Assembly: GCF_009659535.1 (NCBI RefSeq)
Contig: NZ_VJZZ01000004.1
Span: 124,001 to 188,000 of the forward strand
Direction of reading: 5' to 3'
Length of the DNA: 64,000 bases
Origin: Aggregicoccus sp. 17bor-14
Lineage (GTDB): Bacteria > Myxococcota > Myxococcia > Myxococcales > Myxococcaceae
A program made the position numbers and the translations under genes. Positions 3,330 through 29,032 of the stretch are shown piece by piece; the stretch's first letter is position 1, and each line of letters starts with the position of its first letter. Under the pieces are notes generated by a model, which had not been told where the DNA came from, made no database searches, and saw only the letters and a program-made list of their open reading frames with translations.

Positions 3330-3388
3330 GGCTACCCGCGCCCTTTACCCCATCCCCGGCAGGCGTTGGACCGGAATCGGGACCGGAA

Positions 3389-8989: not shown

Positions 8990-8991
8990 CC

Positions 8992-10188: not shown

Positions 10189-10191
10189 GCC

Positions 10192-10362
10192 ATGGGCAAG
10201 GTGATCCTCATCTCCATCGTGGTCGTGCCCATCGTGCTCGCGATGCTCGCCGCGCGCGAGAAGCGCGCCGTGTACGGCCTCAAGCGGCTGGTGCTGCTCA
10301 TCCTCGCCTTCCACGTCCTGTACGTGCTGGCGGTCCTGTTCGTCTACCCACGGGTTGCCTGA
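10192..10362 (+). CDS. 56-residue membrane protein inside the EPS operon
   Basis: A small gene starting ATG 3 bases after the barrel gene and ending with a TGA that overlaps the next possible ATG (TGATG at 10360-10364). The protein has two hydrophobic segments, about residues 4-20 (ILISIVVVPIVLAMLAA) and 31-52 (KRLVLLILAFHVLYVLAVLFVY), joined by a basic loop REKRAVYGLKR, which suggests a hairpin membrane protein with its loop on the cytoplasmic side. No family is recognised. Tight packing between EpsX and EpsW implies expression with the export machine and possibly a helper role at the inner membrane. Confidence 0.7.
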   Translation: MGKVILISIVVVPIVLAMLAAREKRAVYGLKRLVLLILAFHVLYVLAVLFVYPRVA

Positions 10363-10382
10363 TGCCGGTTCGTGGTGAAGCC

Positions 10383-10784
10383 ATGTCCAGTCCCCGCCCC
10401 CGCGCGCTCGTCGTCGAGGACGCGCCCTCCATCCGCAAGCTGATGCGCGTCTACCTCGAGGAGCTGAACTTCGAGGTGGCGGAGGCCTCGGACGGCCAGG
10501 AGGCGATCCGCCTGCTGGGCGCGGCGCCCCCGGCGCTGGTGTGCCTGGACCTGATGCTGCCGCGCTTCTCCGGCTACCAGGTCTGCCAGTTCATCCGGCA
10601 GCACCCGGAGTTCCGCGAGGTGCCGATCATGGTGGTGAGCGCGCGCACGCTCCCGCTGGACCGCGCGCACGCCGAGGAGGCCGGCGCCTCCGCCTACCTG
10701 ACCAAGCCCTTCACCCGGGCCCATTTCGCGGAGCAGGTGCGGGCGCTGGTGCCCCCCTCCCGCGCGGATCGCTCTGCCCCATGA
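10383..10784 (+). CDS. epsW: Single-domain response regulator (REC) in the EPS operon
   Basis: Receiver-only protein of 133 residues. It has the acidic pair in ALVVEDAPSIRKLM, the phosphorylation site in VCLDLMLPRFSGYQ (Asp56 from this start), the Thr/Ser segment MVVSARTLP, and the conserved lysine in YLTKPFTRAHF. There is no output domain, so signalling must occur by protein contact. An alternative in-frame ATG at 10362 would add seven residues and couple to the preceding stop; 10383 is chosen because a GGTGAAG stretch lies just upstream. It overlaps epsV by four bases. No cognate kinase is adjacent. Confidence 0.85.
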   Translation: MSSPRPRALVVEDAPSIRKLMRVYLEELNFEVAEASDGQEAIRLLGAAPPALVCLDLMLPRFSGYQVCQFIRQHPEFREVPIMVVSARTLPLDRAHAEEAGASAYLTKPFTRAHFAEQVRALVPPSRADRSAP

Positions 10785-13788: not shown

Positions 13789-15005
13789 CGTCCCCCACCC
13801 TGCTCTCGCTGCTGCCGCTGCTGGACATGGCGCTGCTGCTGCTCGCCGTGCCGGCGCTGCTCGCCGCGCTCTACCTGCTCGCGCTCACCCTGCTCTCGGG
13901 CCGGCTGCCGGTCCCCGCGCGCGCGCCTGCGCGGCTTCGCTTCGACCTCGTCGTGCCCGCGCACAACGAGGAGGCGGGCATCGCGCGCACCGTGGCGAAC
14001 CTCTCCGCGCTCGACTACCCGGCCGCCCTGCGGCGCATCGTCGTCGTGGCGGACAACTGCACGGACGCCACCGCCGAGCGTGCGCGCGCCGCCGGGGCGC
14101 ACGTGCTGGTGCGCCACGACGCCGAGCGCCGCGGCAAGGGCTACGCGCTCGAGTACGCCTTCGCCCGGAGCCTGGAGGAGGCGCAGGCGGACGCGGTGGT
14201 GGTGGTGGACGCGGACACGGTGGTGTCCGCGGGCCTGCTGCACGCCTTCGCGGCGCGGCTGGAGGCGGGCGCACGGGCGGTGCAGGCAGAGTACGGCGTG
14301 CAGAACCCGGATGCCTCCTGGCGCACGCGCCTGCTCACCATCGCCTTCGCGCTGTTCCACGACGTGCGCAGCCGTGCGCGCGAGCGCCTGGGGCTCTCCT
14401 GCGGCCTGCGCGGCAACGGCATGTGCTTCGCGCTCCCGCTGCTGCGCCAGGTCCCGCACGACGCCTTCTCCGTGGTGGAGGACGTGGAGTACGGGCTTCG
14501 CCTGGGGCTCGCGGGGCAGCGCGTGCACTACGCCGGCGAGGTGAAGGTGCTAGGAGAGATGGTGGCCGGTGAGCAGGGCTCGCGCTCGCAGCGCCGGCGC
14601 TGGGAGGGCGGGCGGCTGCAGCTGATGCGCCAGCACGGGCTGCCGCTGCTCGGCCGCGGCCTCGCGCAGCGCTCGGGCCTGCTGGTGGACCTGGCCCTGG
14701 ACATCCTCGTCCCGCCGCTCTCGTGGCTCGCCGCGCCCGCGCTCCTCCTCGGGGCGCTCGCGCTCGCGCTCTCGCTCGCGGGCGGGCACGCGCTGCTGTC
14801 GCTCGGGGCCTGGGGCGCCGTCCTGGCCATGCTCACGCTGTACGTGCTGCGCGGCTGGTGGCTGTCCGGAATGGGGCTGCGCGGCCTTGCGGACCTGGCG
14901 TGCGCGCCGCTGTACGTGCTCTGGAAGCTGGTGCTGTTGCTGCGCCGCCCGCAGCACCCGAAGGGTGCGTGGGTGAGAACGACCCGCGAGGGGGAGTCCC
15001 GATGA
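13785..15005 (+). CDS. epsU: Membrane glycosyltransferase, family GT2
   Basis: Protein of 406 residues. A short N-terminal membrane segment (about 14-38) is followed by a GT-A fold: FDLVVPAHNEEAGIARTV, VVVADNCTDATAE, VVVVDADTVVS (DxD metal site) and a C-terminal QRRRWEGGR (the QxxRW motif of processive-type GT2 enzymes). Three or four further hydrophobic segments follow after residue 300. It should add a sugar to the lipid-linked repeat unit at the cytoplasmic face. The start GTG overlaps the wzy stop (GTGA). The symbol follows the M. xanthus locus by position only, and the donor sugar is unknown. Confidence 0.82.
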   Translation: MTSPTLLSLLPLLDMALLLLAVPALLAALYLLALTLLSGRLPVPARAPARLRFDLVVPAHNEEAGIARTVANLSALDYPAALRRIVVVADNCTDATAERARAAGAHVLVRHDAERRGKGYALEYAFARSLEEAQADAVVVVDADTVVSAGLLHAFAARLEAGARAVQAEYGVQNPDASWRTRLLTIAFALFHDVRSRARERLGLSCGLRGNGMCFALPLLRQVPHDAFSVVEDVEYGLRLGLAGQRVHYAGEVKVLGEMVAGEQGSRSQRRRWEGGRLQLMRQHGLPLLGRGLAQRSGLLVDLALDILVPPLSWLAAPALLLGALALALSLAGGHALLSLGAWGAVLAMLTLYVLRGWWLSGMGLRGLADLACAPLYVLWKLVLLLRRPQHPKGAWVRTTREGESR

Positions 15006-15514
15006 TGAAGCGACGCGAGGCCGTGTCCTCCCTCTCCGCGAGCTCCGAGCCGCTCGCGCTCGCGGCGGCCGTGAAGGCCAACCCCCGGCTCAGCCCCGAG
15101 CTGCAGCAGCTGTGGTTCACGCTGCTGCGCGAGCCGTGGAGCACGCTGGTGGTGATGCCCAGCCACCCGGGCGGCTCCTCCATCGAGCTCACGCGCGCGC
15201 TGGCGGAGGTCGCCCGCATGCACCGCGGCAGCCCGCCCATGGTCATCGACGCGCGCGGCGCGGAGCTGGGGCGCGCGCCGCACTTCATCATCGACATGAG
15301 CACCCACGTGGACAACGGGGGCATGGTGCTGGTGGCGGCGGACGCGGTGGTGGAGAACCAGGTGGGCATCCCGCTCGCGCTCGCGGCCAACGCGGTGCTG
15401 CTCACGGTGACGCTGGGCCAGGCGGACGTGGCGAGCGCGGAGCGCACGCTGGAGCTGCTCGGGCGCCAGCGCATCCTCGGCTGCGTGACGGTGCCGGCGG
15501 TGGAGGCGCGATGA
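15002..15514 (+). CDS. Degenerate BY-kinase/P-loop-like protein of the EPS operon
   Basis: Protein of 170 residues. The layout resembles the cytoplasmic tyrosine-kinase domain of Wzc/CapB. There is a pre-helix QQLWFTLLREPWS, a strand TLVVMPSHPGGSSIELTRALAEVAR placed where the Walker A loop should be but lacking the GK(S/T), and MVIDARG at the Walker A' position. A C-terminal VLLTVTLGQADVASAERTLELLG-RQRILGCV resembles the end of the kinase fold. The missing lysine and the absence of a Tyr cluster imply no ATP hydrolysis. It is translationally coupled on both sides and may be a pseudokinase partner of EpsV. The family link is by pattern and is not proven. Confidence 0.5.
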   Translation: MMKRREAVSSLSASSEPLALAAAVKANPRLSPELQQLWFTLLREPWSTLVVMPSHPGGSSIELTRALAEVARMHRGSPPMVIDARGAELGRAPHFIIDMSTHVDNGGMVLVAADAVVENQVGIPLALAANAVLLTVTLGQADVASAERTLELLGRQRILGCVTVPAVEAR

Positions 15515-17700
15515 AGGCGGCGGCGAGCGGCGGCAGGGCGGTCCCGTTGCTCGCGGCGCGGGCGCTCGTGCTGCTCGCGCTGGCGCTCGCCTGCGGGCGC
15601 AGCGCCGTGGCGGCCGAGCGCGCGCCGGGCCAGCGCACCCAGGCGGCGCCGGCCCCCAGCGAGCCCCTCTACGTGTCCGGGCTCAAGGGCGAGTGGCAGG
15701 ACTACGGCTGGGCGCCGCGCGAGCTGAAGGCCGGCGCGCCCGCGCGCCTGGACCTCAGCAACAAGGGCGGGTGGATCATCGCCCGGCCGGGCTACGGCGC
15801 CCGGCCCGCGGGGCTGGTGCTGCGCTACCGCGCGCCCAGGGGCTTCGGCGACTTCCTCGAGGTGCGCCTGGACGGCAGCGGCAGCGCGGACTTCCCGCAC
15901 GTGCGCGTGCTGCCGCGCCACCGCCTGGACGGCAAGGACGGCTGGAGCGAGGCGTGGCTGTCCCTGCAGGAGCTCAACCCCGCGGGCGCCCCCTTCGACC
16001 GCATCGTGCTGCGCGCGGCCGAGCAGGTGGGAAACGAGCGCGTGGAGGTGGACGGCGTGGGCTTCACCGCCACCGCGCCCGCGGGCGGCCCCGAGGTCGC
16101 CGCGGCCCCCCAGGCCGCCCCGCGCGAGGTGCAGCTCTCCCTCGACTGCCGCGCGCCCGCGCAGCGCATCAAGCCGGGCATCTACGGCATCGCGTACGAC
16201 CAGATGCGCGACGCTCAGAGCATCCACCAGTGGCAGCTGGGCGCCACCATGCGCCGCTGGGGCGGCAACGCCACCAGCCGCTACAACTGGGAGCTGGGCA
16301 ACGCCTGGAACACCGCGAGCGACTGGTACTTCCGCAACGTGAACTACACGGACGTGCCCAACTTCTCGTACACGCGCTTCCTCGATGCGGACCTCGAGAA
16401 GGGCGTGCAGACCGCCCTCACGGTGCCCACCATCGGCTGGGTCGCGAAGGACACGAGCTCGCACGCGTTCTCGGTGGCCACCTTCGGCGCGCAGGCCTCG
16501 GTGGACCCCAGCGTGCCGGACGCGGGCAACGGCGTGGACACCAAGGGCCAGCGCATCGCGCCGGGGCCTCCCGAGCTCACCAGCGTGCCGGCGGGCCCGG
16601 ACTTCATCGGCCGCTGGGTGAAGGCCATCCGCAAGCGCGACGCCGAGAAGGGCACGCGCAGCGTGCACATGTACATCCTGGACAACGAGCCGGCGCTCTG
16701 GAGCGAGACCCACCGGGACGTGCACCCCGAGCCGGTCACCTACGACGAGCTGCTGCAGCGCACGCTCGCGTACGGCACGGCGGTGCGCCGCGCGGACCCG
16801 GACGCGGTCATCGCGGGGCCGGCCGAGTGGGGCTGGTCCAACTACCTGTACTCGGCGAAGGACGCGAAGGTGAGCTACACGCTCGCCCCGGACCGGCGCG
16901 CGCACGGCAACGTGCCCCTGGTGCCCTGGCTCCTGCGCAAGGTGCGCGAGAGCGAGCGGCAGACGGGCGTGCGCGTGCTGGACGTGCTGGACCTGCACTT
17001 CTACCCGCAGGGCAAGGGCATCGGCGTGGGCACGGGCGGGCAGACCGACCCCGGCACCAACGAGCGGCGCATCCGCTCCACGCGCGGGCTGTGGGATCCC
17101 ACCTACGTGGACGAGTCGTGGATCGGCGAGCCGGTGCGGCTCATCCCGCGCATGCGCGAGTGGGTGGACCAGAACGCGCCCGGCGTGGGGCTCTCCATCG
17201 GCGAGTACAACTTCGGCGCCGAGGGGCACATGAGCGGCGGGCTCGCGCTCGCGGAGGCCCTGGGACGCTTCGGCCAGTACGGGCTGGACGCCGCCTTCTA
17301 CTGGACCTACCCGCCGGAGAACTCCCCCGCCTTCTGGGCCTTCCGCGCCTACCGCAACTTCGACGGCAAGGGCGGCCGCTTCCAGGACCTCTCCGTGCCG
17401 GCGCGCTCGAGCCTCGCGAGCACCTCGCTCTTCGCCTCGCGCGACGAGAGCGGCGAGCACCTGGTGGCGGTGCTGCTCAACCTGGACCCCGAGCGCCCCG
17501 CGCGCGGGCGCCTGGACCTGGGCGCCTGCGGCAGCGTGAGCGCGCAGCGCGCCTTCCGCTACATCGGTGAGGCGGCGGGCTTCCGCGAGCTGCCGGCCTC
17601 GGAGGTCCCCGGCGCGAGCGGCCCCGACGTCACCCTTCCCCCCTACTCCATGACGGTGCTCGATCTCACCCTGAGCGCCCGCCCCAAGACCTCCCGATGA
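15511..17700 (+). CDS. epsB: Secreted glycoside hydrolase family 44-like enzyme
   Basis: Protein of 729 residues with a signal peptide (hydrophobic run ending near residue 34) and an N-terminal beta-sandwich-like region (about 50-190). A GH44-type TIM barrel follows from IYGIAYDQMRDAQSIHQW, with MRRWGGNATSRYNW. The predicted acid/base is the Glu of DNEPALW (Glu393) and the predicted nucleophile the Glu of IGEYNFGAEG (Glu565). A C-terminal beta domain follows (YIGEAAGF through PPYSMTVLDLTL). GH44 enzymes cut beta-1,4-glucan or xyloglucan-type chains. Within this operon it may trim or release EPS, or clear misplaced polymer in the periplasm. The symbol is by analogy with the glycosyl hydrolase of the M. 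xanthus eps locus. Confidence 0.85.
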   Translation: MKAAASGGRAVPLLAARALVLLALALACGRSAVAAERAPGQRTQAAPAPSEPLYVSGLKGEWQDYGWAPRELKAGAPARLDLSNKGGWIIARPGYGARPAGLVLRYRAPRGFGDFLEVRLDGSGSADFPHVRVLPRHRLDGKDGWSEAWLSLQELNPAGAPFDRIVLRAAEQVGNERVEVDGVGFTATAPAGGPEVAAAPQAAPREVQLSLDCRAPAQRIKPGIYGIAYDQMRDAQSIHQWQLGATMRRWGGNATSRYNWELGNAWNTASDWYFRNVNYTDVPNFSYTRFLDADLEKGVQTALTVPTIGWVAKDTSSHAFSVATFGAQASVDPSVPDAGNGVDTKGQRIAPGPPELTSVPAGPDFIGRWVKAIRKRDAEKGTRSVHMYILDNEPALWSETHRDVHPEPVTYDELLQRTLAYGTAVRRADPDAVIAGPAEWGWSNYLYSAKDAKVSYTLAPDRRAHGNVPLVPWLLRKVRESERQTGVRVLDVLDLHFYPQGKGIGVGTGGQTDPGTNERRIRSTRGLWDPTYVDESWIGEPVRLIPRMREWVDQNAPGVGLSIGEYNFGAEGHMSGGLALAEALGRFGQYGLDAAFYWTYPPENSPAFWAFRAYRNFDGKGGRFQDLSVPARSSLASTSLFASRDESGEHLVAVLLNLDPERPARGRLDLGACGSVSAQRAFRYIGEAAGFRELPASEVPGASGPDVTLPPYSMTVLDLTLSARPKTSR

Positions 17701-18506
17701 GCGCTCCCGCCCCGGTCCTCCGCTCCCCTCCCCCTGCCGCTCCCGCGGCGCCGCGCCTGCGCCTCGGGCGGCTCACGATCGATCCCGTCACCTTCCCCGA
17801 GGCGCTCGCGCGCATCGAGGCGCTGGTGGCCGCACGCCAGGGGGGCAGTGTCTTCACCCCCAACGTGGACCACGTGGTGAACGTGGACGCGGACGCGCAC
17901 TTCGCCGAGGCCTACGCGCAGGTGAGCCTCTCGCTGGTGGACGGCACGCCGCTGCTCTGGGCCTCGCGCGCGCTGGGCGCGCCCCTGCCGGAGAAGATCT
18001 CGGGCTCGGACCTGGTGTGGCCGCTCATGCAGCGCGCCGCCGAGCGCGGCTGGCGCGTGTACCTGCTAGGCGCGGGGCCCGGCGTGGCCCAGGAGGCCGC
18101 CGAGCGCTTCGAGCGGGAGCTGGGACTGAAGGTCGTGGGCGTGGACTCGCCGCGCATTGCCGCCCGTCCCGGCGCCGTCGACGAGAGCGCCGAGGCGCTC
18201 GCGCGCCTGCGCGCCGCCGCGCCGGACCTGGTGCTCGTGGCCTTCGGCTCGCCGAAGCAGGAGCTGTGGATCCACGCGCACGCGGCCCAGCTCGCGCCGG
18301 CCGTGGCGGTGGCCGTGGGCGCCTCGCTGGACTTCGTGGCGGGGCGGGTGAAGCGCGCCCCGGCCTGGATGTCGCGCGCGGGGCTGGAGTGGCTCTACCG
18401 GCTCGGGCAGGAGCCGCGCCGCCTGTGGCGCCGCTACCTGGTGAACGACCCCAAATTCGTGGGCATCCTGCTGCGCACGCTGCGCGAGTCGCGGCGCGCC
18501 CGCTAG
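17697..18506 (+). CDS. epsA: WecG/TagA/CpsF-family glycosyltransferase (GT26)
   Basis: Protein of 269 residues. Characteristic segments are VFTPNVDHVVNVDAD, LVDGTPLLWASRALG with EKISGSDLV, the strand YLLGAGPGVAQEAAERF, VLVAFGSPKQELWI (the G-PKQE motif) and VGASLDFVAGRVKRAPAWM, with the family end LEWLYRLGQEPRRLWRRYLV. Such enzymes add ManNAc(A)- or Glc-type sugars to a lipid-linked intermediate at the inner membrane. The start overlaps the glycoside hydrolase stop (ATGA), and it is the last gene of the plus-strand operon. Ten bases separate it from the convergent acetyltransferase, and I see no terminator there. Confidence 0.9.
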   Translation: MSAPAPVLRSPPPAAPAAPRLRLGRLTIDPVTFPEALARIEALVAARQGGSVFTPNVDHVVNVDADAHFAEAYAQVSLSLVDGTPLLWASRALGAPLPEKISGSDLVWPLMQRAAERGWRVYLLGAGPGVAQEAAERFERELGLKVVGVDSPRIAARPGAVDESAEALARLRAAAPDLVLVAFGSPKQELWIHAHAAQLAPAVAVAVGASLDFVAGRVKRAPAWMSRAGLEWLYRLGQEPRRLWRRYLVNDPKFVGILLRTLRESRRAR

Positions 18507-18516
18507 GGACGCGGGC

Positions 18517-19071
18517 TCAGGTCCCCGAGCGCGCGGTGCGGTAGGGGTCCCGCGCGCCCTTGGGCTGGGCCTTCGCCGGGATGCCCGTCACCACGCTGTC
18601 CGGGGGCACGTCGTGCAGCACCACGGCGTTGGCCCCGATGACCGAGCGGGCCCCCACGCGGATGGGGCCGAGGATGCGCGCCCCGCAGCCCACCACCACG
18701 TCCTCCTCGAGCGTGGGGTAGCCGTTGTCCTTCGCGGTGCCCACGGTGTTGTTGCCCATGAAGCGCACGCGGTCGCCGATGCGCGCGTCCCCGCCGATGA
18801 CGATGCCCAGCGTGTGCACGAAGTACACGCCCTTGCCCAGCGTCACGTCCTTGCCGATCTCGATGCCGTAGAGCGCCGTCTGCGCGAGCCGCAGGATGCG
18901 GTTCGCGCCCGGCAGCAGGCGCGCCGCGGCCCGCACGCGCTGCAGCGCGAGCACCGTGTACCCGTCCGAGAGGGCCAGGGTGCGCAGCACCTGGCGGGCG
19001 TCCGGGCTGCCCCCGGCCTCGCACTGCGCCACCTGCACCGCGTCTTCGTACAGCTGCCTGAGCATGCGCAT
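18517..19071 (-). CDS. epsC: Serine O-acetyltransferase-like protein (left-handed beta-helix)
   Basis: Protein of 184 residues, shorter than E. coli CysE (273). After a 70-residue helical part it has hexapeptide-repeat coils: IEIGKDVTLGKGVYFVHTLG, IVIGGDARIGDRVRFMGNN, and VVVGCGARILGPIRVGARSVIGANAVV, ending VVTGIPAK. A histidine is kept in the VHTLG position, but the usual His-Pro of the IHPGA motif is replaced. In this setting it more likely acetylates a sugar or an intermediate of the EPS than makes O-acetylserine. It is convergent with epsA and lies 95 bases downstream of the lipoprotein gene at 19167-20960 on the same strand. The symbol follows the M. xanthus eps locus. Confidence 0.75.
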   Translation of the reverse strand: MRMLRQLYEDAVQVAQCEAGGSPDARQVLRTLALSDGYTVLALQRVRAAARLLPGANRILRLAQTALYGIEIGKDVTLGKGVYFVHTLGIVIGGDARIGDRVRFMGNNTVGTAKDNGYPTLEEDVVVGCGARILGPIRVGARSVIGANAVVLHDVPPDSVVTGIPAKAQPKGARDPYRTARSGT

Positions 19072-19166
19072 CTCCACGGCCCTTCGCGGGCCCGAGCGCC
19101 CGCGCGCGGGCTGCTCCGGGTGTACCCCCCGGGCGCACGCGGCGTCCAGGGAGTGCGCTCGGAGGC

Positions 19167-20960
19167 TCAGCCCTTGTACGTGTAGCAGACGCTGGGATCG
19201 AAGGTGGGCGGGGCGGCCACGTTCTCCTGCAGCCCCAGGTTGTCCCAGCTGCGCTCGTCCATGAAGGGCGTGTTCTGCAGGTAGTAGCGCTGGCCGGTGC
19301 GGTCGTTGCTGTCCGAGAAGAACTCGATGCGCTCGCCGGCCGAGTGGTAGAGCACCTGCCCGAAGCCCACCGCCGCCTCCGCCATGGTGAGCTTCACCGA
19401 GGGGAAGTCGTTGCAGAGGCGCTGCTGGCCGTTCACGTAGAGCACCACGCGGCCGCGGCGCACGTACAGGTCGTAGCGGGCGCGCGGGGCGATGAGCATC
19501 TGGTCGTCCAGGATGGGCGCGAGCAGCTTGCCGGCCGCGTCCTGCGTGCGGAACCAGCCGGGCGCGGCGATGTTCGGCTCGTGGTACTGGTCCGGGCTCA
19601 CGTTCACCACGCTGCTGCGCGTGGGCTTGTTGGCCAGGTTCACCATCACGCGGATGTCGGACTCGGGGCGCTTGTTGCTGGGCGCCAGGGTGAAGGGCCA
19701 GCCGTCGCGCGGGAACACCTGGAGGCAGTTCCACAGCTCGATGCTGGGGTTCTGCCCGTCCTCCTGGTGGAAGAAGGGGGTCTGGATGATGCTGCCCTTG
19801 AGCGCACCGTCCGCCTCCATCGTGGCGCCCTCGGTGGCCGCGCCGCACAGCGAGATCCACCAGTAGCGGCGCGAGGTGGCGTCGCTCGCGACCTCGTAGG
19901 AGACGTGCAGGTAGCCCTCGTCGTAGAGCTTCGCCGGGTGCTTCGGGTAGGCGATGTTGGAGGCGAACACGTCCTGCCCCACGTCCGCGATCAGCGTGTG
20001 CAGCTGCCCGCGGTCGACGAAGAACTGGGTGAGCTCGGAGCCGTAGGTGTAGAAGTTCCACTTCGCGTTCATGTACCGGCGCGGGTTCTGCGCGCGGTCG
20101 TAGCCCTTCACGCTGCCCACCAGCTTCGGCTGATCGTTCTCGGTGAAGCCGTCGAAGAAGTCGCTCGGCGCGGTGGGGGCCGCGCGCGGGGTGATGAGCA
20201 GCGTGGTGCGCGCGAGCACCCGGGGCGCCACGGGCGCGGCCTGCGCGCCGGGGCGGGGGCCCGGGCCGTGGCCGTTCACGATGAGGCTGCCGTAGCGAGT
20301 CCGGATCTCGTCCGCCGTGTACACCTCGTGGAGCCCCTTCGCCGCGTCCTTCACCTCCACGTTGTTCGTCACGTCCACCACGCCGTGCTCCGAGCCGATG
20401 ACGCCCGGGAAGGGGCACGCGGCGTCCACCGCCTCCACCACCACGCGCGTGGGGCCGGAGAGCGCCGTCACGTCCAACTGCCGCAGCAGCTCCAGCGTGG
20501 CCTGCGCCTTCGCGTTGTGCTGGCGGTAGCCCGCGCAGTGCACCAGCGCGCCGTCCACCTGCTCCTGACCCGCGACGGGCACGCTCACCTTCACGCCGTT
20601 CACCAGGGCGAAGGCGCGGTAGTCGCGTGCGCCGTCCACCAGGGGGAGCACGAGCAGGGCGCTGTCGTAGTTGGCGAGCACCTGCACCCCCTCCATGAGC
20701 GGGGCGCTGGTCCACGGCAGCGCCGCGCCGTCCGCCCCCGGGGGCGCGGTGGGGCTGTCGGCCACCGTGGCGGGCACCGCCTCGGGCGCGCCGGGCAGGG
20801 GGTCCACGCCCACCTCCGGCTCGGTGACGCCCGGCCCGGCCCCCGGGTCCCCCTTACAGGCGAGGACGAGAAGTGAGGCGACCAGCGCGCAGCGCCGCAG
20901 GGCGGACGGGAGGGGGCTGGGGCGGGTCGGGGAGGGGCACTCGAGTCGGCGTAGGTACAT
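19167..20960 (-). CDS. Large lipoprotein of unknown function, possible polysaccharide-binding C-terminus
   Basis: Protein of 597 residues with a signal sequence ending in the lipobox LVLACKGD, then a Pro/Gly/Glu-rich linker (about 40-90). The body is rich in beta strand and Asn/Tyr/Trp. The last 120 residues (RARYDLYVRRGRVVLYVNGQ, VGFGQVLYHSAGERIEFFSD) have the strand pattern of a concanavalin-like or jelly-roll module. I cannot assign a family. It lies between epsC and the divergent peroxidase gene and is probably exported to the outer membrane, where it could bind the exopolysaccharide. The start at 20960 is the ATG giving the signal peptide MYLRRLECPSP. Confidence 0.65.
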   Translation of the reverse strand: MYLRRLECPSPTRPSPLPSALRRCALVASLLVLACKGDPGAGPGVTEPEVGVDPLPGAPEAVPATVADSPTAPPGADGAALPWTSAPLMEGVQVLANYDSALLVLPLVDGARDYRAFALVNGVKVSVPVAGQEQVDGALVHCAGYRQHNAKAQATLELLRQLDVTALSGPTRVVVEAVDAACPFPGVIGSEHGVVDVTNNVEVKDAAKGLHEVYTADEIRTRYGSLIVNGHGPGPRPGAQAAPVAPRVLARTTLLITPRAAPTAPSDFFDGFTENDQPKLVGSVKGYDRAQNPRRYMNAKWNFYTYGSELTQFFVDRGQLHTLIADVGQDVFASNIAYPKHPAKLYDEGYLHVSYEVASDATSRRYWWISLCGAATEGATMEADGALKGSIIQTPFFHQEDGQNPSIELWNCLQVFPRDGWPFTLAPSNKRPESDIRVMVNLANKPTRSSVVNVSPDQYHEPNIAAPGWFRTQDAAGKLLAPILDDQMLIAPRARYDLYVRRGRVVLYVNGQQRLCNDFPSVKLTMAEAAVGFGQVLYHSAGERIEFFSDSNDRTGQRYYLQNTPFMDERSWDNLGLQENVAAPPTFDPSVCYTYKG

Positions 20961-21067
20961 GTGTGCGACGCGTCTTACCTTGACTGGGGGTGATTGTTCT
21001 ATTGGACCCCTTGCCGAACCGGCTCCTGCTCGGAAAGCATCCGGCCTCCTCCCGTGTTCGAGGCCCC

Positions 21068-22333
21068 GTGCTCGAATTTCCCTGCCCTTCCCTGCCCCCG
21101 CGCCGCCTCCGCCGCTTCGCGCTCGGTGTGAGTGCGCTCCTCGCGCTCGGCGCCTGCAGCGAGCCCTGCCCCGAGGCCCCCGGGCTGGGTGCGCAGCAGT
21201 GCGCGGAGGTGCGCGCGATGCGGCTGCCCGAGGCCCTGCCGGCCGCGCGCGGCAACGCGCACGCGGAGGACCCGGCCGCGGCGCTGCTGGGCTTCCGCGT
21301 CTTCTTCGACGCGCGCTTCTCCTCGGACCAGCAGGTGCGCTGCGCCACCTGCCACGCCCCCGAGCGCCACTTCCAGGACGGCCTGCCCGTGGCACACGGG
21401 CTCGAGGACGTGACGCGCAACACGCCCACCGTGCTCAACGCGGCCTGGCAGCGCTGGCAGACGTGGGACGGCAGCGCGGACTCGCTCTGGTCGCAGCCGC
21501 TCACCGCGCTCGAGAACCCGAAGGAGATGAACCTCACGCGGCTCGAGCTCGCGCACCGCATCGCGGAGTACTACGGCCCGCGCTACGAGCCGGCCTTCGG
21601 CGCGCTCCCGCCGCTCGGGGACACGGCGCGCTTCCCTGCGCGCGGCAGCCCCGGCTCCTCCGAGTGGGAGGCGATGGCGCCCGCGGACCAGGACGCGGTG
21701 AACCGGGTGGCCGCCAACGTGGGCAAGGCCCTCGAGGCGTACCTGCGCAAGCTCGCCGCGGGGCCGTCCGCCCTGGACCGCTACCTCGCGGGCGACGCGG
21801 CCGCCCTGGGCGAGCAGGAGCGCAAGGGCCTGCGGGTGTTCGTGCAGGCGGGCTGCAGCAGCTGCCACTCCGGCCCGCAGCTGAGCGACGAGCGCTACCA
21901 CAACCTCGGCGTCCCCGCGCTCGCGGGCGCGCCGCTGGACGAGGGCCGCAGCGCCGGGCTCGCGCACGCGGGCGCGAGCCCCTTCAACGCGCTGGGACCC
22001 TATGCGGACGGTCCGGTGCCGGGCGCCTCGGGCGCGGACTACGTGGCGCAGCCGGGCGCGGAGGCGCTGGGGGCCTTCCGCACCCCGTCCCTGCGCAACC
22101 TCGAGGACAGCGCGCCCTACGGGCACAACGGCCGCTTCGCGACGCTCGAGGAGGTGGTGGACTTCCACCTCCAGGGCGGGGGCCGCGGCGCCGGCGGTTT
22201 CGTGGGCGAGGTGAGCCCGCTGCTGCAGCCGCGCACGCTCTCCGCGGACGAGCGCGAGGCGCTGCTCGCCTTCCTGCGCTCGCTCGAGGGGCAGTACCCG
22301 GCCGCCCCCTGGAACAACTGGCCCGAGGGCTAG
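21068..22333 (+). CDS. MauG/cytochrome c peroxidase-like dihaem lipoprotein
   Basis: Protein of 421 residues with lipobox LLALGACSE. Two c-type haem sites are visible, CATCH in the first half and CSSCH in the second, along with GFRVFFDARFS and the C-terminal FRTPSLRNLEDSAPYGHNGRFATLEEVVDFH typical of the MauG/CcpA superfamily. Members reduce peroxide or oxidise a protein substrate in the periplasm. The GTG at 21068 gives a normal signal peptide; a GTG at 20990 would start too close to the divergent gene. A TTGACT at 20980-20985 could be its -35 box, but no good -10 follows. The link to EPS synthesis is unclear. Confidence 0.8.
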   Translation: MLEFPCPSLPPRRLRRFALGVSALLALGACSEPCPEAPGLGAQQCAEVRAMRLPEALPAARGNAHAEDPAAALLGFRVFFDARFSSDQQVRCATCHAPERHFQDGLPVAHGLEDVTRNTPTVLNAAWQRWQTWDGSADSLWSQPLTALENPKEMNLTRLELAHRIAEYYGPRYEPAFGALPPLGDTARFPARGSPGSSEWEAMAPADQDAVNRVAANVGKALEAYLRKLAAGPSALDRYLAGDAAALGEQERKGLRVFVQAGCSSCHSGPQLSDERYHNLGVPALAGAPLDEGRSAGLAHAGASPFNALGPYADGPVPGASGADYVAQPGAEALGAFRTPSLRNLEDSAPYGHNGRFATLEEVVDFHLQGGGRGAGGFVGEVSPLLQPRTLSADEREALLAFLRSLEGQYPAAPWNNWPEG

Positions 22334-22339
22334 CGGGAG

Positions 22340-23905
22340 CTAGGCCGACTGGGCGCGGCGCGCGGCCCGCTGCCCCAGCACCTCGCGCACGAAGTGGATC
22401 AGCTCGCGCGGGCGCACGGCGCCGAAGGCCCAGGCGAGCGGCAGGTACGCGAGCGCGTCCACCGCGAGCCGCCACGGCCCCAGCGGCGCGAGCAGGCGGT
22501 GCAGCAGGATCACCGCCGCGCACACCGCGAGCGAGCGCCCGATGGTGAGCAGCGTGGAGCGGTCGAGCAGCTCGCGCCCCACCGTCCACATCAGCATCGC
22601 GGTGACGCAGATCTCCATGCCCACCACGCCCACCGCCGAGCCCACGCCCGCGCCGCCCGGACCGAAGTGGCGCGCGCACAGGGGCACCGCCACCAGCGCG
22701 ATGAGCGGGTTGAGGATGACACCGGTGATGGACACCGAGGTCAGCGTCCAGCCGCGGTTCTCCGTGATCAGCGCCATGGAGAGCAGGATGGCCAGGTAGG
22801 TGAAGGCGAAGAGCAGCACCAGCACCCGCAGGCTGTGCACGGCGGGCGCGTAGGCCTCGCCGAACACGCGGCGCACCAGGAGGTCCGCCCCCAGGCCGAT
22901 GAGCAGCATGATGGGCAGCGTGGCGGTGATGACGCCTGCCACCGAGCGGCGCAGCACCTGCACGAAGGCCTCGTGGCTCTCGGCGCGCGCGCGCGACAGC
23001 AGCGGCATCACCACCCAGTTGACCAGCGGCGAGAGCAGCATCGCGAGGCTCGCCAGGTTGTTCGAGGCGCTGTACCAGCCGATCTCCTGCGCGTCGCGCG
23101 TGAGGAAGCCGAGCATGGTCACGTCCACCTTGGAGCAGAGCGTGACGGCCACCCCGTTCACGAAGAAGGGGATGCAGGCGCGCAGCACCTCGCGCGTGGC
23201 GGCCGCGTCCACGCGCAGCGTCAGGTCCAGCTCGCGCTGCGCGATGGGCCACAGCAGCACCACGCGCAGCGCCTCGGAGAGCAGGAAGCTGGAGGCGAGC
23301 ACCCAGAGCGGGGCGTGCAGCACGATGCCCAGCCCCACGCCCACCGCCCAGATCAGCTTCGCGCCCACGTTGATGACCGCGAGCCGCCCCACCGTGCCGT
23401 GCGCCTGCAGCAGCGCCGCGAGCGAGTTGCTCACGCTGACGCACAGGTACGCGACCCCGAAGAGCACCACCACCGGCTCGGTGCCCGCGGGTGCCCCCGC
23501 GCGCCCGATGGAGAGCGCGAGCGCGGCGAACACCGGCGCGCTCAAGAGCGCGCGCGCCACCAGCAGCCCCCCGAAGAAGTCCGAGGCGTGCGCCGGGCGC
23601 ACCGAGATCTCCTTCTGGATGTAGGTGTCCACCCCCAGGGTGAGCAGGATGAAGTAGGTGGCCGCGAGCGTGTCCGCGAGGTTCAGGGTGCCGAACAGCT
23701 CGGGGCCCAGGTGGCGCGGCAGCGCGATGCGGATGACCAGGGCCACCGCCCAGGTGCCCAGCAGCGAGGCCCCGAGCTTCAACGCGTTTCGCGCCGCGAC
23801 CACCCGGCTGTTGGTGGGGGCGGGAGCGGCGACGGCGACGGCGACGGCGGCATCGGGCGGAGCGGCGGCGGACATGGGCTCGGGTGCCATACCACGCGAG
23901 CGCAT
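22340..23905 (-). CDS. wzx: Polysaccharide flippase (Wzx, MOP superfamily)
   Basis: Protein of 521 residues with about twelve to fourteen membrane helices and MATE/Wzx-type features: RNALKLGASLLGTWAVALVIRIALPRH at the first helix, YLCVSVSNSLAALLQAHG, and SKVDVTMLGFLTRDAQEIGWYSAS. It should flip the undecaprenyl-linked repeat unit to the periplasm for the polymerase encoded at 12235. The start at 23905 has an AGGTG seven bases upstream; in-frame ATGs at 23890 and 23875 are alternatives. It is isolated on the minus strand, divergent from the FkbH gene, and ends convergently 6 bases from the peroxidase gene. Confidence 0.87.
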   Translation of the reverse strand: MRSRGMAPEPMSAAAPPDAAVAVAVAAPAPTNSRVVAARNALKLGASLLGTWAVALVIRIALPRHLGPELFGTLNLADTLAATYFILLTLGVDTYIQKEISVRPAHASDFFGGLLVARALLSAPVFAALALSIGRAGAPAGTEPVVVLFGVAYLCVSVSNSLAALLQAHGTVGRLAVINVGAKLIWAVGVGLGIVLHAPLWVLASSFLLSEALRVVLLWPIAQRELDLTLRVDAAATREVLRACIPFFVNGVAVTLCSKVDVTMLGFLTRDAQEIGWYSASNNLASLAMLLSPLVNWVVMPLLSRARAESHEAFVQVLRRSVAGVITATLPIMLLIGLGADLLVRRVFGEAYAPAVHSLRVLVLLFAFTYLAILLSMALITENRGWTLTSVSITGVILNPLIALVAVPLCARHFGPGGAGVGSAVGVVGMEICVTAMLMWTVGRELLDRSTLLTIGRSLAVCAAVILLHRLLAPLGPWRLAVDALAYLPLAWAFGAVRPRELIHFVREVLGQRAARRAQSA

Positions 23906-24059: not shown

Positions 24060-26516
24060 ATGAACGTCAAAGGTATCGCCGAGGCCCTGCTGCCCCGCTC
24101 CCCCCTGGTCGACAAGCTGCTGCGCAGCCTCGGCCGTGACGCGGAGCTTCCGCTCTCGCAGAAGGTGAGCAAGGGGGTGCGCTTCCTCACCGCCTCCACC
24201 TCGGCGCCCTTCTACCTGCGCGAGTGCACGCAGGTGGGCGCGCGCGCCCGCACGCAGGGGCGGCCGGTGATCGTGAACCAGGGCGAGCTCCACATCGGGG
24301 ACGACCTCAACCTCAACTGCGCCTTCAGCCCGGTGCAGCTGAGCACCGCGCCCGGGGGCGTGCTGGAGATCGGGAACCGCGCGGACATCAACTTCGGCAC
24401 CCTGCTCAGCGCGCACGCGCGCGTGAGCGTGGGAGACCGCGCGCGCATCGGGCCCTACTGCATCCTCTCGGACACGGGCACCGCGGACGCTTCCCCTTCC
24501 GCGGACGCGCCCCTGCCCGCCCAGCCCATCAGCGTGGGCCACGACGTGTGGCTCGCGGGTCGCGTGACGGTGCTGCCGGGCGCGAGCATCGGGGACGGCT
24601 CGGTCATCACCGCGGGCTCGGTCGTCTCGGGCGCGATTCCCGCTGGCGTCATCGCCGGCGGCATCCCCGCGCGCGTGCTGCGGCGGCTGGAGGCGGGCGC
24701 ACCCGCCGGAGCCGCGGAGCTCACCGGGCCCACCGAGGTCACCGGGCCCACCGGGCCCACCGGGCCCAGCGCGGGCGCGCGCCTCGCCGCCGCGGCCCAG
24801 CGCCTGCCCGCGGCGTCCGAGGCGGCAGACGCCGTGCGCCCCGCGGTGGCGCTGCGCGGCCTCGCCATCTCGGACTTCACCATCGACGAGCTCGCGCAGC
24901 AGCTGGAGCAGGACCTCGAGGCGCCGGGGCTCGCGCTGGAGGTGGCCCCCTTCGGCCAGGTGATGCCCACGCTGATGGAGCTGGGCTCGGGAGCGAGGAG
25001 CGCGCCGGACTTCGCCCTGGTGTGGACGCGGCCCGAGGCGGTGCTGCCCAGCTTCGCCGAGCTGCTCGCCTTCAAGCCCGTGGCGCCCGAGCGCCTGCTG
25101 GAGGAGGTGGACGCCTTCTGCGCCCTGCTCACGCAGGGGGTGAAGGGCTGCCGCTTCGCCTTCGTGCCCACCTGGGTGCTGCCCGCGCACAACCGCGGCC
25201 TGGGCCTGCTGGACACGCGCGAGGGGCCGGGCCTGCGCCACGCGCTGACCCGGGCGAACCTGCGGCTGATGGAGAACCTGGCGCGCGCCTCCAACGTGCA
25301 CGTGCTGGACGCGGAGCGCTGGGTGCAGGCGGTGGGCCGGAACGCGCTCAACCCGAAGCTCTGGTACCTGGGCAAGGTGGCCTTCCACAGCGACGTGTTC
25401 GCCGAGGCGGTGAAGGACCTCAAGGCGGCGGTGCGCGGGCTCACCGGCGGGGCGCGCAAGCTGGTGGTGGTGGACCTGGACGACACCCTGTGGGGCGGCA
25501 TCGTGGGGGACCAGGGCTGGCAGAACCTGCGCCTGGGCGGCCACGACAGCGTGGGCGAGTCCTTCGTGGACTTCCAGCACCACCTCAAGGCGCTCACCCG
25601 CCGCGGCATCGTGCTGGCCATCGCGAGCAAGAACGAGGAGTCGGTGGCCCTGGAGGCCATCCGCAGCCACCCCGAGATGGTGCTCAAGCCCGAGGACTTC
25701 GTGGGCTGGCGCATCAACTGGCAGGACAAGGCGCGCAACATCGCGGACCTCGCGGCGGAGCTGAACCTGGGCCTGCAGTCCGTGGTCTTCCTGGACGACA
25801 ACCCCGTGGAGCGCGCGCGCGTGCGCGAGGCGCTGCCCGAGGTCTTGGTGCCCGAGTGGCCCGAGGACAAGCTGCTCTACACGAGCGCGCTGCTCTCCCT
25901 GCGCTGCTTCGATGCGCCGGCCATCAGCAAGGAGGACCTGGAGCGCACGCAGATGTACGGCTCGGAGCGCCAGCGCGACGCGCTCAAGGAGCAGGTGGGC
26001 TCGCTGGACGCGTGGCTGCAGAGCCTGGGCATCCAGGTGAAGGCGGAGCCCTTGAGCGCGAGCAACCTGCAGCGCAGCACCCAGCTGCTCAACAAGACGA
26101 ACCAGATGAACCTCTCCACGCGCCGGCTCACCGAGCCCGAGCTGCAGGCGTGGGCGAGCGCGCCCGGGCACCGGCTGTGGGCGGTGCACGTGTCCGACCG
26201 CTTCGGCGACGCGGGCCTCACCGGCCTGGTCAGCGTGGAGGTGGAGGGCACGCGCGCCCGCGTCGTGGACTTCGTGCTCAGCTGCCGGGTGATGGGCCGC
26301 AAGGTGGAGGAGACGATGGCGGCCCTGGTGGTCGCGTACGCGCGCACCCAGGGCCTGAGCGAGGTGGTGGCGGACTTCCTGCCCACGAAGAAGAACAAGC
26401 CCTGCCTCACCTTCTGGGAGGGCTCGGGCTTCACCCGCGAGGGCGAGCGCTTCCGCTGGGACGCGAGCGCCCCCTACCCCGTGCCCGGCTTCATCCAGCT
26501 CGAGGAGGCGCCTTGA
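24060..26516 (+). CDS. LbH acyltransferase fused to FkbH-type HAD-IIIC / GNAT protein
   Basis: Protein of 818 residues in four parts. Residues about 70-215 are hexapeptide-repeat coils (LHIGDDLNLNC, LEIGNRADINFG, VSVGDRARIGPYCI, ISVGHDVWLAGRVTVLPGA, ending IAGGIPARVL) of an acyltransferase beta-helix. Residues 222-236 are a TGP-repeat linker. Residues about 250-465 resemble the SGNH-like N-terminus of FkbH proteins. Residues about 468-600 are the HAD-IIIC domain, with nucleophile Asp472 in VVVDLDDTLWGGIVGD, AIASKNEESV and VFLDDNPVERA. The end is a GNAT-like domain with DFLPTKKNKPCLTFWEGSGF. FkbH proteins take a glyceryl unit from 1,3-bisphosphoglycerate to a carrier protein. The next gene overlaps it and contains a carrier domain. 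Confidence 0.85.
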   Translation: MNVKGIAEALLPRSPLVDKLLRSLGRDAELPLSQKVSKGVRFLTASTSAPFYLRECTQVGARARTQGRPVIVNQGELHIGDDLNLNCAFSPVQLSTAPGGVLEIGNRADINFGTLLSAHARVSVGDRARIGPYCILSDTGTADASPSADAPLPAQPISVGHDVWLAGRVTVLPGASIGDGSVITAGSVVSGAIPAGVIAGGIPARVLRRLEAGAPAGAAELTGPTEVTGPTGPTGPSAGARLAAAAQRLPAASEAADAVRPAVALRGLAISDFTIDELAQQLEQDLEAPGLALEVAPFGQVMPTLMELGSGARSAPDFALVWTRPEAVLPSFAELLAFKPVAPERLLEEVDAFCALLTQGVKGCRFAFVPTWVLPAHNRGLGLLDTREGPGLRHALTRANLRLMENLARASNVHVLDAERWVQAVGRNALNPKLWYLGKVAFHSDVFAEAVKDLKAAVRGLTGGARKLVVVDLDDTLWGGIVGDQGWQNLRLGGHDSVGESFVDFQHHLKALTRRGIVLAIASKNEESVALEAIRSHPEMVLKPEDFVGWRINWQDKARNIADLAAELNLGLQSVVFLDDNPVERARVREALPEVLVPEWPEDKLLYTSALLSLRCFDAPAISKEDLERTQMYGSERQRDALKEQVGSLDAWLQSLGIQVKAEPLSASNLQRSTQLLNKTNQMNLSTRRLTEPELQAWASAPGHRLWAVHVSDRFGDAGLTGLVSVEVEGTRARVVDFVLSCRVMGRKVEETMAALVVAYARTQGLSEVVADFLPTKKNKPCLTFWEGSGFTREGERFRWDASAPYPVPGFIQLEEAP
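24723..24767 (+). repeat. Five tandem 9-bp units encoding a collagen-like TGP linker
   Basis: Five head-to-tail 9-mers, four exactly ACCGGGCCC and the second ACCGAGGTC, lie in frame and encode TGPTEVTGPTGPTGP between the beta-helix and FkbH parts of the preceding entry. The unit length is a multiple of three, so copy-number change would only lengthen or shorten the linker. Confidence 0.85.
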
Positions 26517-27349
26517 AGCGCCCGGGCTTCGCGGGCCTGCTGGCCGGGCTCATGCCTGCAGCACACGGCGCGCTGCAGCTGCGCGCCTGCGACCGGGTGG
26601 GCCTGCGCCCGCGCGTGCACGGGAGCGCGCACGTGGAGAACCGCGGGCACATGGAGGTGGGCGACCGCTTCCTGCTCGAGTCCTCGCCCGTGCAGTCGCA
26701 CCTGGTCACGGGGCCGCGCGGGCGGCTGGAGATCGGCCACGACGTCTCCATCGGCCACGGCGCGGCCATCGCCGCGCACGCGCACGTGCAGGTGGGCAAC
26801 CGCGTGCAGGTGGGCGCCTTCGTGATGGTGATGGACACCGACTTCCACGACGCCGTGCACCGCGACGTGATGCCCGAGGGCCAGCCCATCCTCATCGGCC
26901 ACGGGGTGCGCATCGGCGCCCGGGTGACGGTGCTGCGCGGCACCGTCATCGGCGAGGGCGCGGAGGTGGAGGCGGGCAGCGTGGTGTCCGGCGAGGTGCC
27001 GCCCCACACCGTGGTGGGCGGCGTGCCGGCGCGGGTGCTGCGCCGCGTGGGCGAGGCACCCGGCGCAGCGCCGCAGGGCCCAGCCGAGGCGCAGGGCAGC
27101 GTACTCGCGCGCGTGGGCCAGGTGGTGCAGCGCACCTTCGGCCTGCCGCAGGTGCCGCCCCCGGAGGCGGGCCCGGGCCAGGTGCGCGGCTGGGACTCGC
27201 TCGGCTCGCTCAAGCTGCTGCTCGCGCTGGAGGACGCCTTCGGGGTGTCCCTCTCCGAGGACGAGATGGCGCGCTCGCGCACGCTCGCCGAGCTGGGCGC
27301 GACGCTCGAGGCAGCGCTCGCGCGCCGCAAGGGCGCGCACGCCGCCTGA
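26513..27349 (+). CDS. LbH acyltransferase fused to an acyl carrier protein
   Basis: Protein of 278 residues. Residues about 50-175 are hexapeptide coils (GHMEVGDRFLLES, LEIGHDVSIGHGAAIAAHA, VQVGNRVQVGAFVMVMD with TDFHD, ILIGHGVRIGARVTVLRGTVIG, VVGGVPARVLRR), as in maltose/galactoside-type acetyltransferases. After a linker, residues about 200-270 form a carrier domain with the phosphopantetheine site GWDSLGSLKLLL (Ser229) and AFGVSLSEDEMARSRTLAEL. The start is TTG at 26513, overlapping the preceding stop by four bases (TTGA), with GAGGAGG just upstream as RBS. Linking carrier and transferase in one chain suggests the acyl group loaded by the FkbH protein is passed directly to a sugar. The acyl group and acceptor are unknown. 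Confidence 0.82.
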   Translation: MKRPGFAGLLAGLMPAAHGALQLRACDRVGLRPRVHGSAHVENRGHMEVGDRFLLESSPVQSHLVTGPRGRLEIGHDVSIGHGAAIAAHAHVQVGNRVQVGAFVMVMDTDFHDAVHRDVMPEGQPILIGHGVRIGARVTVLRGTVIGEGAEVEAGSVVSGEVPPHTVVGGVPARVLRRVGEAPGAAPQGPAEAQGSVLARVGQVVQRTFGLPQVPPPEAGPGQVRGWDSLGSLKLLLALEDAFGVSLSEDEMARSRTLAELGATLEAALARRKGAHAA

Positions 27350-27358: not shown

Positions 27359-29032
27359 CTAGGTGCCCGAGGGCTTCGCGGCCCCGGGGCCCGTGCTGCT
27401 CTGGCCGCGCTTGCGCGGGCGCACGGCGCTCGCCGGCGTCTCCACGATGGAGCCCGCGGGCACCGACTGCAGCACCACGGCGTTGGCCATGATCTTCGAG
27501 CCCTCGCCGACCGTGATGGGGCCGAGCAGCCGCGCGCCCGGGCCCACGTGCACGTGGGCCTCGAGCACCGGCGAGCCGATGGCGCCCGTCACCGGGTCGC
27601 GGCTCTCGCCCACCGTCACCTGCTGGCTGAGCACCGCGCCGGGGCCGATGCGCGCCGCGCCGTTGATCGCCATCCCCATCCCGTGCACCACGATGCAGCC
27701 CGGGGCGATGTCCGCGTCCCAGTGGATGTCCGAGCCGTAGAGGTGGCGGATGAGGCGCGAGCTCGCCTTGGCCGCGAAGGTGAGCCCCACGCGGCGGAAG
27801 AAGCGCATCACGCGGTACTGGATGAGGATCTGGAAGCCCACCTTCTGCACCGCGTCCACCGGCAGGCGCCCGGGCGGCACCAGCTCGCCGTGGTACTTCG
27901 CCTCGGCGGTGCGGATGGCGGCGTGGTCCGCCTCGATGCCGTGCACCAGCTCCGCGAGCGCCGCGCCCCCACCCTCCCCGCCCCAGCGCGCGAGGTAGCC
28001 CAGGTACTCCTTGAGCGCGGGCCACGCGCCGCCGGTCTCCTCGCGCACGCCGCGGTAGTACTCCATGCCGTACACCAGCGTGGCCGCGGCGATGGCGAGC
28101 CGCTCCTGTCCCAGCCGGTCCACCGCCAGCCCCGTGCGGATGGCCACCGCGGCGAGCCCCTGCGAGATGCGCGGCGCCACCAGCGCGAGCCCCAGCAGCG
28201 GGCGCGAGAGCGGGTTCACCATCCCGAGGAAGCGCCAGGGGCTCGCGTTCTGCACGTCCGGGTGCTTGCGCGCGATGCGCAGGTCGAAGACGCCGTAGTG
28301 CAGCGCCCGCTTCAGCCAGGTGTCCAGCTTCGTGTGGTCCGAGCCATGGATGACGTAGGGCAGCTCGGAGAACACGATGCGGCAGCCCAGCTTCTCGAGG
28401 CGGATGCCGAGCTCCACGTCCTCGGAACGCTTGAGCGAGCGGTCGAAGCCGCCGGCGGCGAGGAAGTCCTCGCGCCGCAGCGACACGTTGCCCGTGTACA
28501 GGTGGTCCCCGCGCGGCACGAGGCGCCCCTCGCGCACGTCGCTCACGAACATCTCCAGCATGCGCGAGTGGTAGCGCTCGAAGAGCGGCATCCGGCCGAG
28601 GTTCTCGTCCGGGCGGATGAGTCCCAGCGCCACGTTGCGCGAGCCCTCGGGGTGCAGCGCCAGGTGCTGCGCGAGGAAGTCCTCGGCCACCTGCATGTCG
28701 TCGTCCACGATGACCAGCAGCTCCGCGCGCGCGCGCTGCACGCCCGCCTGCCGCGCCGCCGCGGGCCCCGCGTTCTCCTGCTCCACCACCTCGAGGTGGA
28801 AGGGCCACGCGCGCGCCTGCAGCGCCGGCACCACGCGCTCGCGCGAGCCGTCGTCCACCACCACCACCTCGAAGCGCGAGGGCGCGAGGCTCTGGCGCCC
28901 CAGCTGCTCGAGCAGCCGCAAGAGCAGCGGCAGGCGGTTGTACGTGGCCATGACCACGCTCAGCTCGGGCGTGCCCGACTCCGCCACGCCCGGCCCCCTA
29001 GCGCGGCCCCCCTCGCGGTGCTTGCGACTCAT
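27359..29032 (-). CDS. GT2 glycosyltransferase fused to a serine-acetyltransferase-like domain
   Basis: Protein of 557 residues. The first 300 are a GT-A transferase: LSVVMATYNRLPLLLRLLEQL, FEVVVVDDGS, LLVIVDDDMQ (DxD), and RREDFLAAGGFDRSLKRSEDVELGIRL with the catalytic ED. A helical middle part follows (about 320-420). The C-terminus from about 425 is CysE-like: HLYGSDIHWDADIAPGCIVVHGMGMAINGAARIG, then VTVGESRD and ITVGEGSKIMANAVV. The fusion suggests a sugar is transferred and then acetylated, or an acetylated sugar is built by one polypeptide. It converges on the ACP-LbH gene with a 9-base gap. It could correspond to one of the GT genes of the M. xanthus eps locus, but I do not assign a symbol. 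Confidence 0.85.
   Translation of the reverse strand: MSRKHREGGRARGPGVAESGTPELSVVMATYNRLPLLLRLLEQLGRQSLAPSRFEVVVVDDGSRERVVPALQARAWPFHLEVVEQENAGPAAARQAGVQRARAELLVIVDDDMQVAEDFLAQHLALHPEGSRNVALGLIRPDENLGRMPLFERYHSRMLEMFVSDVREGRLVPRGDHLYTGNVSLRREDFLAAGGFDRSLKRSEDVELGIRLEKLGCRIVFSELPYVIHGSDHTKLDTWLKRALHYGVFDLRIARKHPDVQNASPWRFLGMVNPLSRPLLGLALVAPRISQGLAAVAIRTGLAVDRLGQERLAIAAATLVYGMEYYRGVREETGGAWPALKEYLGYLARWGGEGGGAALAELVHGIEADHAAIRTAEAKYHGELVPPGRLPVDAVQKVGFQILIQYRVMRFFRRVGLTFAAKASSRLIRHLYGSDIHWDADIAPGCIVVHGMGMAINGAARIGPGAVLSQQVTVGESRDPVTGAIGSPVLEAHVHVGPGARLLGPITVGEGSKIMANAVVLQSVPAGSIVETPASAVRPRKRGQSSTGPGAAKPSGT

Follow-up and report, generated by a model that had tools for sequence, protein, structure and literature searches.

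Enzymes of the left-handed beta-helix (LbH, or hexapeptide) superfamily have active sites that sit between neighbouring subunits. LpxA and LpxD are LbH acyltransferases that use an acyl carrier protein (ACP) and a catalytic His; they are unfused homotrimers with complete active sites, and they transfer fatty acyl chains from the general carrier AcpP. In the plant mitochondrial gamma carbonic anhydrase/carbonic anhydrase-like heterotrimer, which is part of complex I, an active LbH protein is combined with a degenerate paralogue. Carrier-dependent acylation of envelope polymers is already known from DltA/DltC and AlmE/F/G, in which an AMP-forming enzyme loads a small group onto a carrier protein and a membrane-bound MBOAT or LPLAT transferase moves it to the polymer (PMC3783018). 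In tetronate and methoxymalonate pathways, an FkbH protein acts with a dedicated, discrete ACP (e.g. Mad7/Mad8), and there is precedent for glyceryl-S-ACP as the product of FkbH (PMC7489565). Here, we describe two adjacent genes, A and B, in a 64,000-nt stretch of Aggregicoccus sp. 17bor-14 (contig NZ_VJZZ01000004.1, positions 124,001-188,000; referred to as the window, in whose coordinates window features are given). Gene A joins an LbH domain to FkbH, gene B joins an LbH domain to a carrier domain, and what is new is that, by sequence, these two LbH domains are not equivalent.

Like LpxA and LpxD, the A/B pair combines LbH domains, an acyl carrier and a catalytic His, but it differs in its fusions and in having no LbH domain with a complete site. 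The plant heterotrimer has a heteromeric LbH core, but catalyses an unrelated reaction and involves no carrier. Dlt and Alm likewise load a small group onto a carrier for an envelope polymer, but contain neither LbH nor FkbH parts; conversely, no AMP-forming carrier ligase, MBOAT or LPLAT transferase was found among the Pfam-scanned neighbours of A/B (6108-32830). The dedicated ACP and the expected glyceryl-S-ACP are shared with the tetronate and methoxymalonate systems, whereas A and B each carry an LbH domain, lie in a polysaccharide locus and have no polyketide synthase (PKS), FabH-like ring-forming enzyme or 3-hydroxyacyl dehydrogenase among the same scanned neighbours. An earlier note on this DNA had regarded the presence of LbH domains on both loader and carrier as an undescribed arrangement. 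In the open-access literature, we found no account of the fused pair, of an LbH-FkbH fusion or of any bacterial LbH acyltransferase whose site is divided, and nothing relevant linking FkbH with O-antigen, exopolysaccharide (EPS) or capsule; the carrier route itself, in contrast, is not new in kind, given DltA/DltC, AlmE/F/G and LpxA/D.

A conserved pair of fused genes

The product of gene A has a hexapeptide match (PF00132, 33.4 bits, cut-off 27) and, at residues 465-794, a TIGR01686 (FkbH) match of 288.2 bits, above the curated cut-off of 146.65. Its FkbH part comprises an N-terminal region, a HAD-IIIC phosphatase (467-610) and a GNAT-like transferase (about 647-800). Asp472 and Asp474 of the HAD nucleophile motif and Cys742 of the GNAT-like part are each invariant in the aligned FkbH proteins that cover the column (80/80), and Cys742 is a candidate acyl-thioester or active-site residue. 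Foldseek matched the AlphaFold2 model of A (pLDDT 68.5) to BF1531 of Bacteroides fragilis (3slr), with GNAT folds at the C-terminal part. The FkbH part of A probably loads a C3 unit.

Gene B starts at a TTG codon preceded by a GAGGAGG box, and this start overlaps the stop of A by four bases (TTGA). Its product has a hexapeptide match (PF00132, 42.2 bits) and a PP-binding match (PF00550, 26.3 bits, cut-off 20.8). In the model (pLDDT 74.7), the carrier domain is confident and its best Foldseek PDB matches are ACPs with probability 1.00; Ser229 lies at the start of helix 229-243 in the model secondary structure, as expected of the four-helix ACP fold, in which the Ser opens helix II. Conversion of B to a holo-ACP is very likely. 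The window's own genome contains two PF01648 matches, and a homologous EPS locus (L040) includes a phosphopantetheinyl transferase gene (PF01648, 14040-14726) that overlaps the Wzx gene. The earlier note had described the four-base overlap, the joining of a hexapeptide domain to FkbH with Asp472/474 intact and that of a hexapeptide domain to a carrier with Ser229 intact, all of which are confirmed here.

Related genomes, together with a single scan that covered 84,980 species genomes, yielded the LbH-FkbH fusion in ten distinct loci from Myxococcota and Pseudomonadota: the window, G036 (L040), G055 (L039/L072), G001 (L041/L069), G077 (L066, Anaeromyxobacter), L067, its near-copy L068 from a Hyphomicrobium metagenome-assembled genome (MAG), L070, L073 and the Sorangiineae MAG L077. 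Gene B directly follows gene A in all ten, so the co-occurrence that the earlier note proposed to look for is found throughout, and there is little doubt that the two proteins work together. A pairing that arose by chance or as a local accident was rejected, since the frames are long and overlapping and the pair is kept in every locus. Beijerinckiaceae locus L090 was rejected as a fusion, because its FkbH is unfused and the LbH is encoded by a gene of its own downstream. The genome of L073 holds a second LbH-FkbH copy (G199:C13:87891-90161). In a tree with 69 unfused FkbHs, the ten fused FkbH parts share one branch (SH-aLRT 92), which suggests that the fused FkbH arose once and has moved laterally to some extent between Myxococcota and Pseudomonadota.

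Unfused FkbH genes usually also have a carrier nearby. A carrier-like open reading frame lies within 1.5 kb in 68/72 unfused FkbH loci (the remaining four include loci at contig ends), mostly directly upstream and overlapping, and usually with an LDSLG motif; FkbH-ACP is therefore probably the ancestral functional unit. These pairs, present in many phyla, share with A/B the FkbH family (41-62 % identity) and the adjacent ACP, but their ACP stands alone, mostly upstream, without LbH fusion, and they are often accompanied by SDR and MaoC genes, which could alter the acyl group. Other neighbours are methyltransferase, glycosyltransferase (GT), epimerase and some hexapeptide genes. Because no SDR/MaoC set was seen beside A/B in the fused loci, direct use of the C3 unit would be the simplest reading. 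The widespread, mostly overlapping ACP-FkbH gene pair of loci L071-L145, often found with MaoC, SDR and glycan genes, has no description that we found in the open-access literature.

Complementary residues in the two LbH domains

The LbH domains were compared with LacA (1kqa; reference positions N85, H115 and W139); the aligned part of the LacA row in the joint alignments agrees with the 1kqa chain. The domain of A keeps Asn111 (N85) and Trp164 (W139) and has Thr141 at the position of His115, where the other A proteins have various residues and none has His. The domain of B, in contrast, keeps His112 without equivalents of Asn and Trp. This complementary pattern is present in all ten pairs, and neither subunit contains all three residues. 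The interpretation of A and B as one conserved functional unit with intact FkbH and ACP catalytic residues stands, but the earlier note had also taken both LbH domains for intact, working acyltransferases, and this part fails: the catalytic His is missing from every A protein, B has lost Asn and Trp, and the split is fixed. The LbH domain of A is unlikely to be decaying, as its Asn and Trp are invariant and it is about as conserved as that of B (35-56 % and 39-51 % identity to the window among homologues, respectively). Unpaired single relatives in Myxococcales (L156, L157, the first gene of L159, and L160) carry Asn, His and Trp together.

The same split occurs outside the fused pair. A search with B revealed Myxococcaceae loci in which two unfused LbH genes stand in tandem, a His-only and an Asn/Trp-only one, and in 9 of the 11 such loci used in the alignment the pair is followed by an ACP gene. 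In the joint alignment, the N-type domains have Asn in 22/22, Trp in 22/22 and His in 0/22, the last of which becomes a loss in 21 of 22 if one His of L149 enters the column under another gap placement; the H-type domains have His in 22/22, Trp in 0/22 and Asn in 1/22. These rows are not independent, as they represent three systems.

One of these systems is a conserved Myxococcaceae operon (L148-L152, L154, L155, L158 and L161; e.g. L158 6887-13820), which encodes an FFGHQSVG-motif protein, the His-only LbH, the Asn/Trp-only LbH, an ACP, asparagine synthase, an AMP-ligase and an NAD-synthase-like protein; in L158, the genes after the tandem pair include AsnB, an AMP-binding enzyme and an NAD-synthase-like protein. 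This looks like a parallel carrier-dependent acylation system: it shares with A/B the asymmetric LbH pair, the Asn/His/Trp split and the carrier protein, but uses separate genes and has AMP-ligase and amidotransferase-type genes in place of FkbH. A third system with the same split is located in the window's own genome (L163 6436-9955; G000 contig C11), in the order His-only LbH, AMP-ligase-like, SDR-like, ACP-like (VLDSIG) and Asn/Trp-only LbH, with names assigned by eye from the sequence. As the split also appears in unfused operons with ACP genes, the A/B fusions combine parts that in other loci stay together but are encoded by separate genes. We see an even chance that these systems belong to one class of LbH transferases that depend on a carrier. 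Its members would split a single active site over two obligate subunits (His versus Asn and Trp) and work with interchangeable loaders (FkbH here, AMP-ligases in the Myxococcus-type and third operons); in the window type, fusion would have reduced the system to a self-loading machine of two proteins.

A proposed divided acyltransferase and its alternatives

On balance, we favour the reading that A and B are two subunits of one self-loading acyltransferase with a divided active site and an EPS sugar as acceptor. The FkbH part of A would start from a C3 acyl donor in phosphorylated form, most likely 1,3-bisphosphoglycerate, with the HAD part removing the phosphate. The acyl group, most likely D-glyceryl, would then be handed to B, onto the phosphopantetheine arm that Ser229 would bear in its carrier domain. 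The LbH domains would assemble via their beta-helices, so that loader and carrier hang from one core, and transfer would occur at the A/B interfaces, where His112 from B and Asn111 and Trp164 from A would make up one site over two genes. The acceptor would be one of the sugars in the repeat unit of the Wzx/Wzy-dependent exopolysaccharide, and its acylation would take place in the cytoplasm prior to flipping. The fusions make sense in this arrangement, because they attach the loader to the Asn/Trp subunit and the carrier to its His counterpart, and the two would meet once the subunits assemble. A duplicated pair with His in one member and Asn and Trp in the other is expected of an obligate heteromer that shares its sites, and we consider it fairly likely that the LbH domains form one. 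Transfer to an EPS sugar is a reasonable expectation, and glyceryl as the acyl group is an evenly balanced call.

Several points weigh against this reading. The acyl group and acceptor are drawn from family knowledge only, and the structural models are of single proteins rather than of the complex and reach only moderate pLDDT. Thr replaces Asp before the carrier Ser in the ACPs of two loci. No polysaccharide genes are visible in L041/L069 and L073, and the near-identical L067 and L068 have merely scattered glycosyl genes. The LbH tree does not settle whether the A domain belongs with the N-type and the B domain with the H-type members of the tandem pairs (support 66/79), and a clade uniting the LbH domains of both proteins was not rejected (p-AU 0.64); so weak a tree does not show that all asymmetric pairs go back to a single ancient duplication, or whether the split arose once or repeatedly.

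The LbH domains could instead be a docking or oligomerisation scaffold for FkbH and the ACP, with glyceryl-ACP used by another enzyme, such as the GT2-LbH protein encoded after B or a membrane acyltransferase. This is rather unlikely. It would fit the missing His of the A domain in all ten loci, the Acyl_transf_3 (membrane acyltransferase) gene that adjoins B in L070, and the GT2-LbH gene retained beside A/B in two other EPS loci (L040 4826-6478 and L066 13070-14719). However, a pure scaffold needs neither the invariant DTDFH-type motif in B nor the Asn and Trp kept without exception in A, and among the neighbours no other acyltransferase was seen that all ten loci share.

It is improbable that the LbH domain of B is an ordinary acetyl-CoA-dependent sugar O-acetyltransferase homotrimer, with FkbH and ACP making something else and the fusion coupling only expression and location. 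The domain belongs by sequence to the LacA/maltose acetyltransferase superfamily and keeps the His, but it lacks the Trp of LacA-type enzymes and of the complete single relatives, as do all H-type domains, and is covalently joined to an ACP in 10/10 loci. Synthesis of a glyceryl-derived building block for secondary metabolism, unrelated to EPS, would agree with the pathways from which FkbH with a discrete ACP is best known (PMC7489565) and with the two loci outside polysaccharide clusters. We nevertheless regard it as very improbable, given the lack of PKS, FabH-like and dehydrogenase genes around the window pair noted above and the position of 6/10 loci (the window, L040, L039, L066, L070 and L077) inside Wzx/Wzy-type loci. 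The homologues are thus not found mainly outside polysaccharide loci, a possibility that the earlier note had raised against its own reading.

Genomic setting and significance

The A/B pair follows a Myxococcus eps-type locus (Table 1), in which PHPT, OPX, PCP, Wzx, Wzy, a WecG-type GT, an EpsC-like serine acetyltransferase (SAT) and an EpsB-like glycosyl hydrolase occur together. The PCP has no Pfam match and is named from its position and from comparison with the M. xanthus locus; homologues are present in other loci. The EpsC-like acetyltransferase is a hexapeptide protein by Pfam. The M. xanthus eps locus is made up of these parts too, and no acyl carrier is mentioned in the text of the paper that describes it (PMC7484181), which makes A/B look like a branch-specific accessory. 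The convergent GT2-LbH gene after B is a possible accessory; in L159, GT2 and SAT are separate genes beside an LbH pair, as a counterpart of this fusion. A MauG-like di-haem cytochrome c peroxidase gene (20990-22333) lies within the EPS locus, with the acetyltransferase region on one side and Wzx on the other, and genes that by eye belong to the mevalonate pathway (GHMP kinases and diphosphomevalonate decarboxylase; 305-4714) lie beside the EPS locus.

Table 1. Positions of the A/B genes, their domains and key residues, and neighbouring genes in the window.
Feature	Position	Strand	Basis
Gene A, LbH-FkbH fusion protein, 818 aa	24060..26516	+	Open reading frame; TIGR01686, PF00132; FkbH clade with 9 other fused homologues
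LbH domain of A, residues 57-211	24228..24692	+	LacA 1kqa alignment; 10 A proteins aligned
Low-complexity LbH/FkbH linker of A, residues ~212-262	24693..24845	+	Model pLDDT ~30; alignment gaps
FkbH part of A, residues 265-816	24852..26507	+	TIGR01686/TIGR01681; Foldseek
HAD nucleophile motif Asp472-Leu-Asp474 (in DLDDTLWGG)	25473..25481	+	Conserved in FkbH alignment
Cys742 of S-C-R motif, GNAT-like part of A	26283..26285	+	Conserved in FkbH alignment
Gene B, LbH-ACP fusion protein, 278 aa, TTG start	26513..27349	+	Open reading frame; Pfam; A-then-B order in 10/10 loci
LbH domain of B, residues 22-181	26576..27055	+	D-[TS]-D-[FY]-H invariant in 10/10 B proteins
His112 of B (in DTDFH), equivalent to LacA His115 within one alignment residue	26846..26848	+	Alignment
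Carrier (ACP) domain of B, residues 197-277	27101..27343	+	PF00550; model pLDDT ~90; Foldseek
Ser229 of B (in WDSLG), predicted phosphopantetheine attachment site	27197..27199	+	W-[DT]-S-L invariant in 10/10 B proteins
GT2 + serine-acetyltransferase-like LbH fusion, convergent, after B	27359..29032	-	Pfam
Myxococcus eps-type Wzx/Wzy locus	6856..23875	.	Pfam; comparison with M. xanthus eps locus (PMC7484181)
PHPT of this locus	6856		
OPX of this locus	8327		
PCP of this locus	10781		
Wzy of this locus	12232		
GT2 of this locus	13785		
GH44 of this locus	15511		
WecG/TagA GT of this locus	17697		
EpsC-like SAT of this locus	18517	-	
Wzx of this locus	22340	-	

The structure of M. xanthus EPS is reported as unknown (PMC7484181), which leaves its acyl decorations an open question. 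If the proposed function of A and B is true, the pair would add a route for decorating bacterial surface polysaccharides with small acyl groups taken straight from glycolysis, and would represent a bacterial hexapeptide transferase with an active site divided between two genes. Annotation pipelines would miss such a site, because each subunit resembles an ordinary or degenerate acetyltransferase. The signature, in which a His-only and an Asn/Trp-only LbH lie side by side close to an ACP, lends itself to simple searches, and how far this arrangement extends could be tested at once.

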